Shown in pieces: positions 33,756-52,471 of a stretch of DNA of 52,715 bases. Made by a program: the position numbers and the translations under genes. The stretch spans positions 131,182 through 183,896 of the forward strand of contig JAJVII010000014.1 in the NCBI GenBank assembly GCA_022072085.1. The letters are read 5' to 3'. Each line of letters opens with the position of its first letter. Positions within the stretch are counted from its first letter, which is position 1. The DNA is from Phycisphaerae bacterium. GTDB lineage: Bacteria; Planctomycetota; Phycisphaerae; JAJVII01. The notes below the pieces were generated by a model. It worked only from the letters and a program-made list of their open reading frames with translations. It was not told where the DNA came from and ran no database searches.

Positions 33756-34021
33756 GGGGCGCCTCCACGGCCGCGCCGTTCGCGGGCGCGTCCGATAAAC
33801 ATCCACATGCAGCCAGAGTACGGCATGGCTCTCCGCATCCTCGTGATTGAAAGCGAGACGCTGTCGTGCCGGTCTCGGCCCCGACAGCCGGGGCCGAGTT
33901 CCCCCCCAGCAGGTTGCTCTACAATCGCATCAGGCCTCCGTTGCCCACTCCAGGTCTATCGCAGTCTGACAAATGCCGCGACCCGTTCCAGCCGCCCGCG
34001 CTCGCTGACGCTCGCGGCTAA
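33756..34021. other. Upstream region of the pectin operon with a 10-bp hairpin
   Basis: No gene was found here. CTCGGCCCCG (33874-33883) and CGGGGCCGAG (33889-33898) form a perfect 10-bp hairpin with a 5-base loop. It could terminate transcription coming from the PEP-CTERM genes at 34235-36286, or act in the operon leader. No convincing sigma-70 or sigma-54 promoter for the pectin operon was recognised. Confidence 0.5.
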
Positions 34022-34183
34022 TGAGTCCTGTAAGAGAAATCTTCACCACAGAGAACACAGAGGGCACAGAGTCAGACGTATTGAAAGATTCTGGATTTCG
34101 GTCATTTCTTGACGTTTCGGACCCCCTCTGTGATCTCGGTGTCCTCTGTGGTGAATGAAGATTCCTTTTGCAGGAGTCAATAA
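34022..34183. repeat. 162-bp MITE-like repeat, copy A
   Basis: This 162-base element matches 51303-51464 with only three differences by reading. Its ends are imperfect inverted repeats: TGAGTCCTGTAAGAGAAATC at the left and, in reverse complement, TTGACTCCTGCAAAAGGAAT at the right, followed on both sides by CTTCA(TT)CACCACAGAG. The whole can fold as one long hairpin and encodes nothing. It lies 51 bases past the stop codon of the PEP-CTERM gene at 34235. Size, ends and near identity fit a recently moved non-autonomous element; no transposase is in the window. Confidence 0.85.
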
Positions 34184-34234: not shown

Positions 34235-35278
34235 TCAACTCCTGCTCCGCCTGTTCGCCCGCCGAACGCCGCCCAGCATCAGCAAGCCGCCGGCAGCCAG
34301 CAGCGTCATCGTCGTCGGTTCGGGCGCCGCGACCGGGACCGTGCCGACGGTGAGGACCTTGTAGCCGGTCAGGTTCGGGCCGCCCGATCCGCTCAGGTCG
34401 ACGCCGTTGGAGACGACGTAGTCGGTTCCGTAGGTCGCCCCGGTGATCGAGGCCCAGGCGCTGCCGCTCCAGTACCGGACCTGGTCGCTCTGGCCCTGGA
34501 CGAAGGCGAGAAACCTCGTCAGGTCGGTGGCGTTGTAGGCGAGAGTGAAGTCATACTGCTGCGGCCGGAATGCCAGCATGCCGCCGGTGGAGAGATTGAC
34601 GAAGCTGTCGTCGTGGTTGTTGGGATCGACGACCAGGCCGGAGTTGGCGTAGACGTAGCCGATCTGAAGCAGCCCGCCGTTGGTGATCGTCACGGTCCCG
34701 GCGCCGTCCTTGCCGACGGAAAGGGTCCGGTTGACGAAGACCAGGGAGCCGACGCCGTCGATCGCGATCGTGCCCGACCCGCCGGTGGGATAGCCCAGGT
34801 AGGTCAGGCCGGTGCTGGTGAAGCGGACCTGGCCGCCGTTGGTGACGTTCACGACGCCGGCGCCGGCGTGCGCGGCGCCGTTGCCGCCGATGTAGCCGTT
34901 GGGGGTCGAATACGCCGAACCGTTCCCATCCACGTTCAGCGTGCCGGTGTAGCCGGTCGCGTAGCCGATCAGGGGGTAGCTGGCCGTGCTCATCGTCGAG
35001 CCGTTCTGGAGCGTCACCATCCCGTTGGCCGTGTAGCCGATGTACAGGTAGGCGCCGCTGTTCATGCCCGTCACGCCATCGACGGTGACGGCGCCCTCGC
35101 CGGAGGAGGTGGCGACGTAGACGTAGCCGGTCGCCGGCCAGCCCGAGCCGTTGACCCCGGGGGCCGGAGAGACGTTGCCCGTCGTGACCACGCCGGCCCA
35201 CGCCCCGCCCGGCGCCGCGAAAGCCGCTGCCAGGACGCCCGCCAACACCGCTGCGATCTTTGCTCCGCTCGCGTTCAT
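34235..35278 (-). CDS. PEP-CTERM protein with T5SS/PEP-CTERM-associated repeats
   Basis: The 347-residue secreted protein has a signal peptide (1-~28, ending AWA-G). A repetitive beta-structured body (~50-225) is built of YIGYTANGMVTLQNGSTM-, YLGYPTGGSGTIAIDGVGS- and VGKDGAGTVTITNGG-type units; such G-x-G-T-V-T-V-D/N-G repeats are shared by autotransporters and PEP-CTERM proteins. A short globular part follows and then the APEPTT...LLAAGGLLML...Arg-rich sorting tail. The ATG at 35278 has AAGGAG 8 bases upstream. It lies 51 bases after the neighbouring PEP-CTERM gene and probably shares its sigma-54 promoter at 36408-36422. Role: surface or matrix protein; binding partner unknown. Confidence 0.85.
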   Translation of the reverse strand: MNASGAKIAAVLAGVLAAAFAAPGGAWAGVVTTGNVSPAPGVNGSGWPATGYVYVATSSGEGAVTVDGVTGMNSGAYLYIGYTANGMVTLQNGSTMSTASYPLIGYATGYTGTLNVDGNGSAYSTPNGYIGGNGAAHAGAGVVNVTNGGQVRFTSTGLTYLGYPTGGSGTIAIDGVGSLVFVNRTLSVGKDGAGTVTITNGGLLQIGYVYANSGLVVDPNNHDDSFVNLSTGGMLAFRPQQYDFTLAYNATDLTRFLAFVQGQSDQVRYWSGSAWASITGATYGTDYVVSNGVDLSGSGGPNLTGYKVLTVGTVPVAAPEPTTMTLLAAGGLLMLGGVRRANRRSRS

Positions 35279-47975: not shown

Positions 47976-50876
47976 ATGACCGCCCCACGTCCGAAATCAT
48001 GCGTGCCGTCGGCCTGTTGGCTCCTGCTCATCGGCCTGCTGGGCGTTCTGATCCCCGCGGTCCCGGCGATGGCTGGCGAGCCGGCCGAGGATCTGGCGGC
48101 CCTGGCCGTTAAGGCTTCCGGCTATGAGCAAGGTCTTTGCCTGGTGGCCGGCGACAGCGACGGGAAGGTGACCGTGGCGCTGGCCAAGGCCGGCCGCCTG
48201 TACGTCCAGGGCTGCACCTGGCAGGCCGCCGACGTGCCGGTCGGCCGCGGCGCCATCCTGGCTGCCGGCGTCGCGGACCACGCGTCGTTCATCGGGATCG
48301 AGGCGAAGGGCCTGCCCTATGCCGACAACCTGGTCAACGTGGTGATTGCTTCGGCTGGGGCAGGCGAGGGCGTCACTGCCGCGGAGGTGCTGCGGGTTCT
48401 GGCGCCCGGGGGGCTGGCACTTGCCCGGGCGGACATGGAGGCGGACGTCCGGGCGGCCGGCGCCAAGGACGTCAAGGCCGCGGCGATCGCCGGCTGGATC
48501 CAGTTCAGCAAGGTCGTTGACCCGGCGCTTGACGTCTGGACCCACAACATGGGCGGAGCGGACCTCAGCTCGGTCAACAACGACAAGGTCGCCGGCCCCT
48601 GGGCCGAGGTCCGCTGGATTGGCGACCCGCGGTGGGGCGCGCTTGGCGTGATCTATCATGGACGGGTCACGGCCGGCGGGCGAATCTACTACAACGAGAA
48701 CCGAGCCGCCCCCGGCGGCGGGACCGACGTCTGGCTGGTCGGCCGCGACGCATGGAACGGTGCCGAGCTGTGGCGGAAGGTCATCGGCCAGCCGCCGCGC
48801 TACGGCAACATCGGCAACACGATCACCTGCGACCAGACCCGCGTCTACTGCGTCGAGAACAACCAGACGCTCACCGGCCGCGACGGGCGGACCGGGCAGA
48901 AGCTCATGGAGTACCTCCCGGGCTTCAAGCCGACCGTCGTCACGGCGATCGGGTCGGTCCTGCTGACTTGCGACTTGCGCATCTCGCCGGCGGTGGCCAC
49001 CAAGGTGGCGGCGCTGGACAAGGACACCGGCAAGGTCGTCTGGAGTCGGCCGGGCGTAGCCCATCCTGCCGCCGAGGGCAACTCGGCCTTCGTGCTGAGC
49101 GCCACAGAGCTTGAGGCCGTTGCTGTCTCCACCGGCGCCAGCCTGTGGAAGGTCGCGGTCCCCAAGGCCGACGGCAATCCTCGCGTCTTCTGCAAGGCGG
49201 GCGTGGTCTACGTGCAGTTCAAGCCCACCTGGACGGCGCCGACCTGGCTGGGGGCCTTCGACGCCGTCAAGGGCGAGTTGCTCTGGAAGAAGGACAAGCC
49301 CGGCGGCGGCTACGGCACGCTGGCCTGCCCCGACGGCCTGTGGCTGCTCGAGAACAGCAAGGACCAGGCCTATGTCCTGGACCCGCGCACCGGCTCGCAG
49401 ATTTGCGAGTATCCGGTCAAGGGCATGGGAAAGTGCTTCCCGCCGACCGGCAGCGCCAACTTCCTGATCTATTGCAGCTCGAGCTATCTCGATCGCAGGT
49501 CCGGGGCGGAGATCAATGAAGGGGCCGTCCGCTCCCCCTGCGCCATCGGCCACGTTCCCGCCAACGGGCTGACCTATTTCCTGCCCCACCACTGCGACTG
49601 CAAGGTTACGCTGCGGGGTTTCCTGGCCCTGTCGGCGCAGTCGAAGAGCAGAGCCTGGCTCCCGGAAGGCGGGGAGGGCAGCCCGCAATTGTTCGCCTCC
49701 GGTGCGGCGGCGGCGGGCGAAGCGGAACGGCCCGACGACTGGCCGATCTACCGCAAGGATGCCGCACGGTCCAACTTCACGACGACAGCGCTGCCGGCGC
49801 AACCCCAGTCGCTCTGGCGGCAGAAGGTGGGTTCCTCGCCGCTGACCCAGGCGGTGTCTGCCTACGGGATCGTCTGCACCACCGAACCGCAGGCCCACCG
49901 CGTCCTTGCCCTGGACGCGGCAACCGGCCGGACGCTGTGGAGTTTCACCGCCGACGGGCGGACCGACTGGCCTGCGGCGCTGACCCGCGGGTTGTGCATC
50001 TTCAGCACCGGCGCCGGCTCGGTCTACGCGCTGGACGCGCGGACCGGCAGGGAGGTCTGGCGCTTGCGGGCGGCGCCGGTTGAGAAGTACATCGCCGAGG
50101 AAGGCCAGTTCGCCTCCGCCTGGCCTGTGATCGGCGGCGTGCTGCCCCTCAATGGAGACATCTTTTTCGCGTGCGGGCGCTCGGCCTCGGTGGACGGCGG
50201 GATGTGGGTATTCGGGGCTGAGGCCGCTACCGGCAAGGTACGCTGGCGGGCCAAGGGCGGCTCGAGCGGCGACATGTTCCTCAGCGACGGCAAGGACCTG
50301 ATGCTCACCAAGGTCTTCTACAGTCCCGCCAACGGCTCACGCCTGCCCGGCGGCAAGAAGCCCACGGGACTGCTGCACACCACGCACTATTACACGCCGG
50401 TCTCGGTCCTGGACTACATGGCCTGCGTCGAGCCGCTGCTGTCCAGCCACAAGCACATCGAACTGACCGACGGACGGATCGCCGGCGAGATGCTGGCCTT
50501 CAGCGACAAGCTCGGCGTAGCCGCCTGGCGCTACCGCTTCGGCGTGCCGGCTGCCATGATGAAGAAGAACAAGGCCAATCAAAGGTTCATCTACGCCAAG
50601 GCCGACGGCAAGAACCTCTGGCTGCTGGATGACAACATCAGCCAGCAGATGGTCGGGGCGGTCCTGGCCGGCGACACCGCCTACCTGGCCGGCGTGCCCA
50701 CCTCGCTGGACCCCAGGGACAGATGCGAACTGTGGGTGCTCGCCGGGGCCGATGGCAAACGGCTCCAGACGCTGACGCTGGAGGACAGGCCCGCCTACGA
50801 CGGCCTGTCGGCGGCCGGCGGCCGGCTGTACCTGGCGTGCGAGAACGGCGCGCTGACCTGCCTCGGAGCCAAGTGA
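47976..50876 (+). CDS. Secreted PQQ-type beta-propeller protein with a decayed methyltransferase domain
   Basis: The 966-residue protein has a signal peptide (1-~33, ending AMA-G). A short Rossmann-like segment (~40-160) follows: GLCLVAGDSDGKVTVALA, LPYADNLVNVVIAS and AAEVLRVLAPGGLALA match class I methyltransferase motifs. Two propeller halves (~185-580 and ~600-960) hold repeated GTDVWLVGRDAWNGAELWRK-, LDKDTGKVVWSR- and LDARTGREVWRL-type PQQ-like blades. The glycine loop that binds SAM reads LVAGDSDG rather than G-x-G-x-G, and an ordinary domain would be longer, so methylation is unlikely. The ATG at 47976 is chosen because GGAGG lies 12 bases upstream and a signal peptide follows; spacing is long, so the start is moderately sure. 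Confidence 0.8.
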   Translation: MTAPRPKSCVPSACWLLLIGLLGVLIPAVPAMAGEPAEDLAALAVKASGYEQGLCLVAGDSDGKVTVALAKAGRLYVQGCTWQAADVPVGRGAILAAGVADHASFIGIEAKGLPYADNLVNVVIASAGAGEGVTAAEVLRVLAPGGLALARADMEADVRAAGAKDVKAAAIAGWIQFSKVVDPALDVWTHNMGGADLSSVNNDKVAGPWAEVRWIGDPRWGALGVIYHGRVTAGGRIYYNENRAAPGGGTDVWLVGRDAWNGAELWRKVIGQPPRYGNIGNTITCDQTRVYCVENNQTLTGRDGRTGQKLMEYLPGFKPTVVTAIGSVLLTCDLRISPAVATKVAALDKDTGKVVWSRPGVAHPAAEGNSAFVLSATELEAVAVSTGASLWKVAVPKADGNPRVFCKAGVVYVQFKPTWTAPTWLGAFDAVKGELLWKKDKPGGGYGTLACPDGLWLLENSKDQAYVLDPRTGSQICEYPVKGMGKCFPPTGSANFLIYCSSSYLDRRSGAEINEGAVRSPCAIGHVPANGLTYFLPHHCDCKVTLRGFLALSAQSKSRAWLPEGGEGSPQLFASGAAAAGEAERPDDWPIYRKDAARSNFTTTALPAQPQSLWRQKVGSSPLTQAVSAYGIVCTTEPQAHRVLALDAATGRTLWSFTADGRTDWPAALTRGLCIFSTGAGSVYALDARTGREVWRLRAAPVEKYIAEEGQFASAWPVIGGVLPLNGDIFFACGRSASVDGGMWVFGAEAATGKVRWRAKGGSSGDMFLSDGKDLMLTKVFYSPANGSRLPGGKKPTGLLHTTHYYTPVSVLDYMACVEPLLSSHKHIELTDGRIAGEMLAFSDKLGVAAWRYRFGVPAAMMKKNKANQRFIYAKADGKNLWLLDDNISQQMVGAVLAGDTAYLAGVPTSLDPRDRCELWVLAGADGKRLQTLTLEDRPAYDGLSAAGGRLYLACENGALTCLGAK

Positions 50877-51239: not shown

Positions 51240-51302
51240 GATTCTGGTTCGTGCGGGCATGGTGTGTCGCCCGCCCGCCGGCGGCTTGGCTTTGCCGGCT
51301 AT

Positions 51303-51464
51303 TGAGTCCTGTAAGAGAAATCTTCACCACAGAGAACACAGAGGGCACAGAGTCAGACGTATTGAAAGATTCTGGATTTCGGTCATTTCTTGACGTTTCG
51401 GACCTCCTCTGTGATCTCGGTGTCCTCTGTGGTGAATGAAGACTCCTTTTGCAGGGGTCAATAA
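51303..51464. repeat. 162-bp MITE-like repeat, copy B
   Basis: This is the second copy of the element at 34022-34183, same orientation on the plus strand, with three differences. It ends 83 bases before the ATG of the PEP-CTERM gene at 51548, between the candidate promoter and the gene. It would be transcribed as a long hairpin in the leader and could lower expression. Confidence 0.85.
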
Positions 51465-51547: not shown

Positions 51548-52471
51548 ATGACTCAGCGGTGTGGGCTTCTGACAACTGCGATGGCGTTGTTTGCTCTGGC
51601 CGTGTGTCCGAGCCTGGCCGACGCAGCCGTCATGGCTGTCGATTGGGGCGGGCCCAACTACATCACCAACGGCGGGGGCATCGCCGGCCACCAGAGGGCG
51701 GCCACCGTCGAGAATCTGACCAACGACTACGGTGGGGCCGCCACGCCCGACTATCGCAAGTACGTGCCGTTCAGCGACACGGCCGGGGCGTACTTCTGCC
51801 CCGTCAACAGCCCCGGCGGCTACAACGGGTACGACCAGTCCCAGTCCAGCGCCCTCTACTACGGCGGCTACAACTTCATCCGCTACGACACGACCGGCAC
51901 CAACTATATCGGAGTCATTTCCAGCTCCCCCGGCGACAAGATCCAGCCCTACGTGGGCGGCGCCTGGGGCACCGGCGGCGAGTTCGCTGAGACGATCGTC
52001 TGGGTCAAGGACAACTTCCTCAACGGCGCCAACGCCCTGGACAACCTGGCCCTGGATGCCAGCACCCCCCTGAGCATCACGATCGCCAGCTCCGGAAATG
52101 TGACCTACCGCCTGGTCGTCAAGAACGGCTCGCAGTATTACGTGAGCAACAGCACGATGTCGGCCACCGGACTGTTCACCATCGCCGACCCGGCCGCGGA
52201 GACGTGGGCTGCGTTCAACCCATACAACTCCAACAACCGTCTTTCCGACGTCAGTGGCACCTTCGCCTCGGTCACTTTCGACGACGTGCAGGCCCTCGGT
52301 TTCTATGTCTACAAGCCTGTGCTGTCGTCAGCCGGCCCCTCCTCCATGGTCAGCGACGTGGAGTTCCAGGTGACGACGGCGACCGCCGTTCCCGAGCCGG
52401 CAACGCTGGGACTGTTGGCCGTCGGCGGGCTGGGCCTGCTGACCGCCAGCCGGCGCCGACGCGGGGCCTGA
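51548..52471 (+). CDS. PEP-CTERM protein, ectodomain of unknown type
   Basis: The 307-residue secreted protein has a signal peptide (1-~26, ending ADA) and a beta-rich ectodomain starting AVMAVDWGGPNYITNGGGIAG. Aromatic-rich parts follow (YYGGYNFIRYDTTGTNYIG), then a region around VTFDDVQALGFYVYKP that looks like the last strands of a jelly roll, and finally VPEPATLGLLAVGGLGLL with an Arg-rich end, the exosortase sorting tail. The ectodomain was not assigned. The ATG at 51548 has AAGGAG 6 bases upstream. Its upstream region carries paired boxes copy 5 and the 162-bp repeat. It is the only PEP-CTERM gene in the window on the plus strand. Confidence 0.85.
   Translation: MTQRCGLLTTAMALFALAVCPSLADAAVMAVDWGGPNYITNGGGIAGHQRAATVENLTNDYGGAATPDYRKYVPFSDTAGAYFCPVNSPGGYNGYDQSQSSALYYGGYNFIRYDTTGTNYIGVISSSPGDKIQPYVGGAWGTGGEFAETIVWVKDNFLNGANALDNLALDASTPLSITIASSGNVTYRLVVKNGSQYYVSNSTMSATGLFTIADPAAETWAAFNPYNSNNRLSDVSGTFASVTFDDVQALGFYVYKPVLSSAGPSSMVSDVEFQVTTATAVPEPATLGLLAVGGLGLLTASRRRRGA

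Follow-up and report, generated by a model that had tools for sequence, protein, structure and literature searches.

The window analysed here, a 52,715-nucleotide stretch of a Phycisphaerae bacterium contig (JAJVII010000014.1, assembly GCA_022072085.1), contains two near-identical copies of a short, non-coding hairpin element, each lying close to a PEP-CTERM-like ORF. The first-pass annotation placed these copies at 34022-34183 and 51303-51464, described them as differing at three positions in otherwise unlike surroundings, and that observation holds: the copies are identical except at three positions (98%), and their flanks do not align. Reading the sequence and aligning the wider family moves the ends by one to three bases, to a unit of 160 bp with a TA dinucleotide on both sides. 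Copy A occupies 34021-34180 on the plus strand (TA at 34019-34020 and 34181-34182), and copy B, a member of subfamily A, occupies 51302-51461 on the plus strand (TA at 51300-51301 and 51462-51463). Copy A lies about 54 bp past the stop of a PEP-CTERM-like ORF on the minus strand (34235-35278) and abuts a REP palindrome, CGCGCTCGCTGACGCTCGCGGCTA, at 33997-34020 on the plus strand (exact at C6:165180-165201, where C6 and C9 denote contigs of the draft assembly; score 24 of 24). Copy B lies between an upstream ORF ending at 50876 and a PEP-CTERM-like ORF at 51548-52471 on the plus strand, named from the look of its C-terminus, and ends 86 bp upstream of the ATG. It abuts a GC-rich palindrome at 51271-51301 on the plus strand, which is not the canonical REP (score 9 of 24) and overlaps terminator-like matches at 51266-51285.

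Within each copy, two arrays of short units face one another: three tandem NNCACAGAG units opposite three inverted ones. In copy B the left array, ACCACAGAG-NN-CACAGAG-NN-CACAGAG, lies at 51326-51352 on the plus strand (exact motif at C6:182508-182533), and the inverted right array, CTCTGTG-NN-CTCGGTG-NN-CTCTGTGGT, at 51407-51433 on the minus strand, where it pairs with the left array in the predicted fold. In copy A the left array lies at 34045-34071 on the plus strand (C6:165227-165252), and the right array, placed by offset from copy B, at 34126-34152 on the minus strand. The predicted fold of copy B (-71.9 kcal/mol, z -6.5) is better than those of 200 of 200 dinucleotide shuffles, and a copy of subfamily B gives z -11.0. 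A search of Rfam returned only sub-threshold matches to plant miRNAs.

The element is repeated far beyond chance. The genome (5.49 Mb in 72 contigs) holds 28 places that match over at least 152 bases, plus at least four shorter pieces; seven full copies are 96-100% like copy B and twenty-one are 83-88% like it, defining two subfamilies. The ends read TGANTCCTG...CAGGNNTCA and form imperfect terminal inverted repeats (TATTGAGTCCTG...CAGGNNTCAATA). TA stands on both sides in 26 of 28 two-ended copies. A REP-like palindrome lies right beside 21 of 30 copies, and on both sides of 8 of 30, against 4 of 1040 random 45-mers (Fisher p 3e-33). REP dimers without the element, with a single TA at each edge, exist in the same genome (loci L346, L347, L352 and L353; L numbers denote individual extracted loci), and insertion therefore appears to have duplicated TA. 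The first-pass annotation had named fixed presence in distant relatives as an argument against recent movement; among 60 relatives no full-length copy was found, and only arm fragments match, the longest covering query positions 4-56. This is a recent, lineage-restricted expansion. A search for a transposase with the same ends returned two DDE_3 (IS630-type) hits, neither with these ends, in a draft assembly of which some contigs end at IS-like sequence. At several such contig ends (L009, L019, L030, L035, L342), CACAGAG elements are broken by sequence with ends like GGNTTTTTCATAAT, suggesting an IS that seems to enter these hairpins and to break the assembly. Nesting also occurs in this genome: longer relatives carry a CGCGAAT hairpin inside the CACAGAG arms (L036, L039), and hairpins with TTTTCATAATT ends and CGCTGAG-type arms lie inside CACAGAG elements (L031 1000-1210, L032 835-1000).

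The first-pass interpretation of a mobile-like repeat that may alter expression of the PEP-CTERM gene is thus partly supported. Copy number, TA flanks, paralogous REP dimers without the element and the absence of full-length copies in relatives favor mobility, and the long hairpin is real as a prediction. However, no sigma-70-like promoter was found upstream of the downstream ORF, so that neither the proposed position between promoter and start nor the restored leader of about 146 bases was confirmed, and an effect on expression was not shown. The REP palindromes beside most copies, and the association of the inner arms with a protein family, were missed.

The part of the element that matches relatives is the three-unit arm, and this arm is not private to this MITE. 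A scan of one genome per species recovered at least 115 stretches with the motif, in Acidobacteria, Chloroflexi, Bacteroides, Chlamydiae, cyanobacteria, proteobacteria, planctomycetes and archaea among others, where 0.007 would be expected by chance for its 23 fixed bases (uniform base composition). Of 146 exact motif places, 54 have a convergent partner within 300 bp and 4 a same-strand one; the loops of the 43 hairpins are unrelated and 4 to 214 bases long. The two-base spacers match between arms in 67 of 172 positions, against a shuffle mean of 57 (maximum 75 of 1000), so the units look conserved as sequence and not only as a stem. Individual examples include an ORF-less CACAGAG hairpin between what look, by eye, like trpE and trpG in Bacteroides fragilis (NZ_CP018937.1, L177 6381-6526), and a run of CACAGAG motifs in alternating orientation in a Chryseobacterium MAG (L148 2425-3047). 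A megablast search of plasmids, made in looking for empty sites of the Bacteroides hairpins, returned nothing.

Three longer loops, in Omnitrophota, Acidobacteria and Rhodocyclales, encode GxxExxY proteins (TIGR04256, E 9e-44 to 2e-46; PF13366, E 2e-42 to 1e-45), a family of the PD-(D/E)XK type. Of the other large inverted pairs, one (L055 498-1127) gave a weak HNH-like ORF below the Pfam cut-off, and the others had no clear ORF. The window's own genome has six GxxExxY genes, of which one (C9:56751-57101, within an element at C9:56715-57148, L237) lies exactly between the same CACAGAG arms. In 294 genomes of the phylum, taken to be Planctomycetota, the motif occurs in 40, of which 37 have GxxExxY, against 102 of the 254 others (Fisher p 1e-10); three motif genomes (G147, G157, G253; G numbers denote genomes) show no GxxExxY. 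The pattern read backwards gave one hit in the whole table.

To examine whether such arms are general, 250 bp upstream of each of 76 GxxExxY genes was aligned with the reverse complement of 250 bp downstream. The sample comprised 30 loci from the phylum survey, all six of the window's genome, and 40 of the next-ranked rows of that survey; five ranked rows were left out before any test, four of them with the gene within about 650 bases of a contig start. A score of 12 or more was reached by 73 of 76 genes, against 90 of 760 permuted pairs, and a score of 20 or more by 39 of 76, against 5 of 760. Of the PIN genes used as a control (26 of 30 loci), 1 of 26 reached 12 and 0 of 26 reached 14. The arms are arrays of 7-10-bp units (CACAGAG, CGCAGAG, CACGGAG, CACGAAG, CGCAAAG, CACAGATG, CACGAAT, ACAGGATA and others), as a rule with the same unit on both sides of one gene. 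A D...ExK nuclease-like motif is present in 75 of 76 proteins, and no solved structure is similar in sequence. The inverted layout is not universal, however. Two related GxxExxY genes (L418, L419) have arrays in direct order, and of eight plasmid-borne GxxExxY genes four score 16 or more for inverted arms and the others 7-11; plasmid genes from Prevotella, Treponema, Fusobacteria and Persicobacter have no clear inverted arms. A GxxExxY element with CGCGAAG-type arms on a Sphingomonas plasmid (NZ_CP155749.1, L414) lies between fabD and fabG, 3 to 34 bases from its neighbors. Nor is the architecture limited to this family: TIGR02436 four-helix genes, which are not known as nucleases, lie between inverted arrays of other short units in 27 of 30 sampled loci (L282-L311).

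The unit type follows the protein tree and not the host. Arms were typed by regular expression as ...AG (49), ...AT (20) or unclear (4), with a few rough labels (for example L255, unit CACGGAA). Across the 69 typed rows, the AG/AT label needs three changes on the protein tree, many forks of which are unresolved. A branch with 98% support separates 24 rows (20 AT, 2 AG, 2 unclear) from 52 (47 AG, 2 unclear, 3 untyped), and AG and AT were each as clustered in 0 of 500 shuffles. Both types occur within this genome and within others, so the host does not explain the pattern. At finer scale the match is weaker: among 43 AG rows, pairs from different host families show a weak correlation of protein distance with unit distance (Spearman 0.17, 14 of 2000 permutations as high).

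Flanks of two elements were searched in 15 genomes of one family, and the sites were compared where both flanks matched. Site 1 was examined in 12 genomes. Four (G264, G176, G107, G305) carry GxxExxY elements with CGCAGAG arms, G107 with a shortened protein; G219 carries a GxxExxY element with CACAGAT arms; G205, G127 and G337 have CACAGAT-arm inserts with decayed or other loops; G161 has a 139-bp remnant; G286 has a TIGR02436 gene in different arms; G144 has 2.26 kb; and G244 has only 15 bp ending in ACCACAGAC. Site 2 was examined in eight genomes: two (G176, G205) have GxxExxY in ACAGGAT arms, two (G305, G219) have TIGR02436 in other arms, and four (G264, G107, G144, G321) have no long ORF. 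Families were confirmed for six loop ORFs. The same gap between genes is thus occupied differently by species, although no clean target duplication or exact empty site was defined for the coding element, the emptiest site keeping the 15-bp remnant. Some elements (L410, L411, L407, L408) sit beside an ORF that looks, by eye, like cas1, with GxxExxY in some species and a four-helix gene in others; GxxExxY near CRISPR genes could be mistaken for a Cas component.

We interpret these results in two layers, a reading that we favor with only moderate confidence. The outer layer is well supported: the window copies belong to a roughly 30-copy, lineage-specific MITE that duplicated a TA on insertion, mostly into the TA at the inner edge of REP palindromes. 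IS630/Tc1-type transposases insert in this way, and such a transposase probably spread the element, although none with these ends was found in the draft assembly. In the inner layer, for which the association is shown and the mechanism inferred, the CACAGAG arms are one version of the tandem-unit arrays that bracket GxxExxY genes, and gene and arrays form one element, the unit type following the protein lineage and not the host. The likeliest mechanism is homing-like: the GxxExxY protein would recognize its own array of about three short units, cut or nick there, and repair using the flanking arrays would copy the gene in. ORF-less CACAGAG hairpins, including those of the window, would then be empty or decayed sites, some of which became cargo of other transposons. 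The analysis itself establishes the arms, their association with GxxExxY, the co-inheritance of unit type and protein, and the variable occupancy between species; mobility, binding, cleavage and copying are inferred from sequence alone. It is also possible that the two layers met by chance, as the coding element on C9 lacks the outer TGANNCCTG ends of the MITE. Further, the direct-order arrays fit recognition but not a required hairpin, and the four-helix genes indicate that a nuclease is not needed for the architecture.

A broader reading remains tentative, but is not excluded: a pan-prokaryotic class of selfish elements without a transposase, in which a GxxExxY nuclease (or a four-helix S23-type protein) recognizes short tandem-unit arrays on both its sides, spreads by homing-like copying into intergenic and operon-internal sites, and sheds ORF-less array hairpins that make up a widespread, so far unassigned group of intergenic repeats in bacteria and archaea (CACAGAG, CACGAAG, CGCAGATG and the like). 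If so, this would give an origin to a very common group of intergenic repeats found across phyla, assign a role to a family present in 139 of the 294 sampled genomes, and extend the gene-in-a-hairpin idea from rRNA intervening sequences to ordinary operons. An array code that changes with the protein would be directly testable and could be a new kind of DNA recognition. We could not find such a gene-plus-array element described: in the open-licence literature searched, GxxExxY is scarcely mentioned and, as far as could be seen, not in connection with such elements (PMC8934634), and searches for the repeat strings gave nothing relevant, although earlier remarks on the repeats of TIGR04256 cannot be excluded.

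Among the alternatives, an IVS-like RNA element survives best, although we consider it unlikely. In this view the arms matter as an RNA stem, insertions between co-transcribed genes are tolerated because RNase III removes or trims the hairpin, as for 23S rRNA intervening sequences, and spread occurs through RNA or by rare recombination. The long stable predicted stems, the resemblance of coding loops bracketed by about 27-bp arms to the Coxiella IVS (28-bp stem, S23p ORF, RNase III excision; PMC4990558), the shared layout of TIGR02436 genes, and the position of several elements between same-strand neighbors are consistent with such a role. However, spacers between units are not complementary beyond chance, direct-order arrays exist, and unit type tracks the protein clade, which a pure stem would not need. 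Less likely still is a plain IS630/Tc1-type MITE that prefers REPs and in which the CACAGAG arms are incidental simple repeats; TA flanks, terminal repeats, copy number and REP neighbors fit, but the frequency of the motif across phyla, the excess of convergent partners and the co-occurrence with GxxExxY do not. Movement as a REP/BIME unit by the resident RAYT is very unlikely. A Y1_Tnp ORF (C6:6804-7013) does lie between two inverted copies of the same REP (L043, C6:6524-7241), and is a likely source of the REPs, but the element appears to duplicate TA, is absent from REP dimers elsewhere, and has no REP beside 9 of 30 copies; RAYT elements are not known to duplicate target bases. A regulatory leader hairpin of the PEP-CTERM gene, suggested by the strong predicted fold and position of copy B, is least likely, as the same element lies in about 30 places with unlike flanks, one of them past a stop codon.

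Among described systems, the window element itself most resembles MITEs of the IS630/Tc1 type, such as RUP and Nezha. Both are named as MITEs in the literature (PMC3733652). Like these, it is short and non-coding, with terminal inverted repeats, apparent TA duplication and many copies, but no partner transposase was found in the draft assembly, and its inner arms belong to a cross-phylum array family. REP sequences are established targets of insertion sequences (PMC1525189); here the inserted unit is a 160-bp MITE entering a TA at the REP edge. The element does not itself conform to a REP/RAYT unit, a 20-40 bp palindrome tagged GTAG or CGTC, as it is 160 bp long and no such tag was seen at its ends; REPs and TIR-flanked tyrosine transposases have been described (PMC3733652). 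The 23S rRNA intervening sequences with an S23p/TIGR02436 ORF share a small gene in the loop of terminal inverted repeats, scattered presence and reduced copies, and the four-helix family has been linked to Avd (PMC10053308). However, the elements read here lie between protein genes, the window copies are ORF-less, the related coding forms hold GxxExxY, and the arms are arrays of about three short units. Finally, homing endonuclease genes, such as LAGLIDADG and others in rRNA introns (PMC11270868), share the proposed logic of a nuclease gene that occupies its own recognition site, whereas the protein here is of the PD-(D/E)XK type, the putative sites are short tandem arrays, and the elements, whose homing is inferred, stand free between genes.
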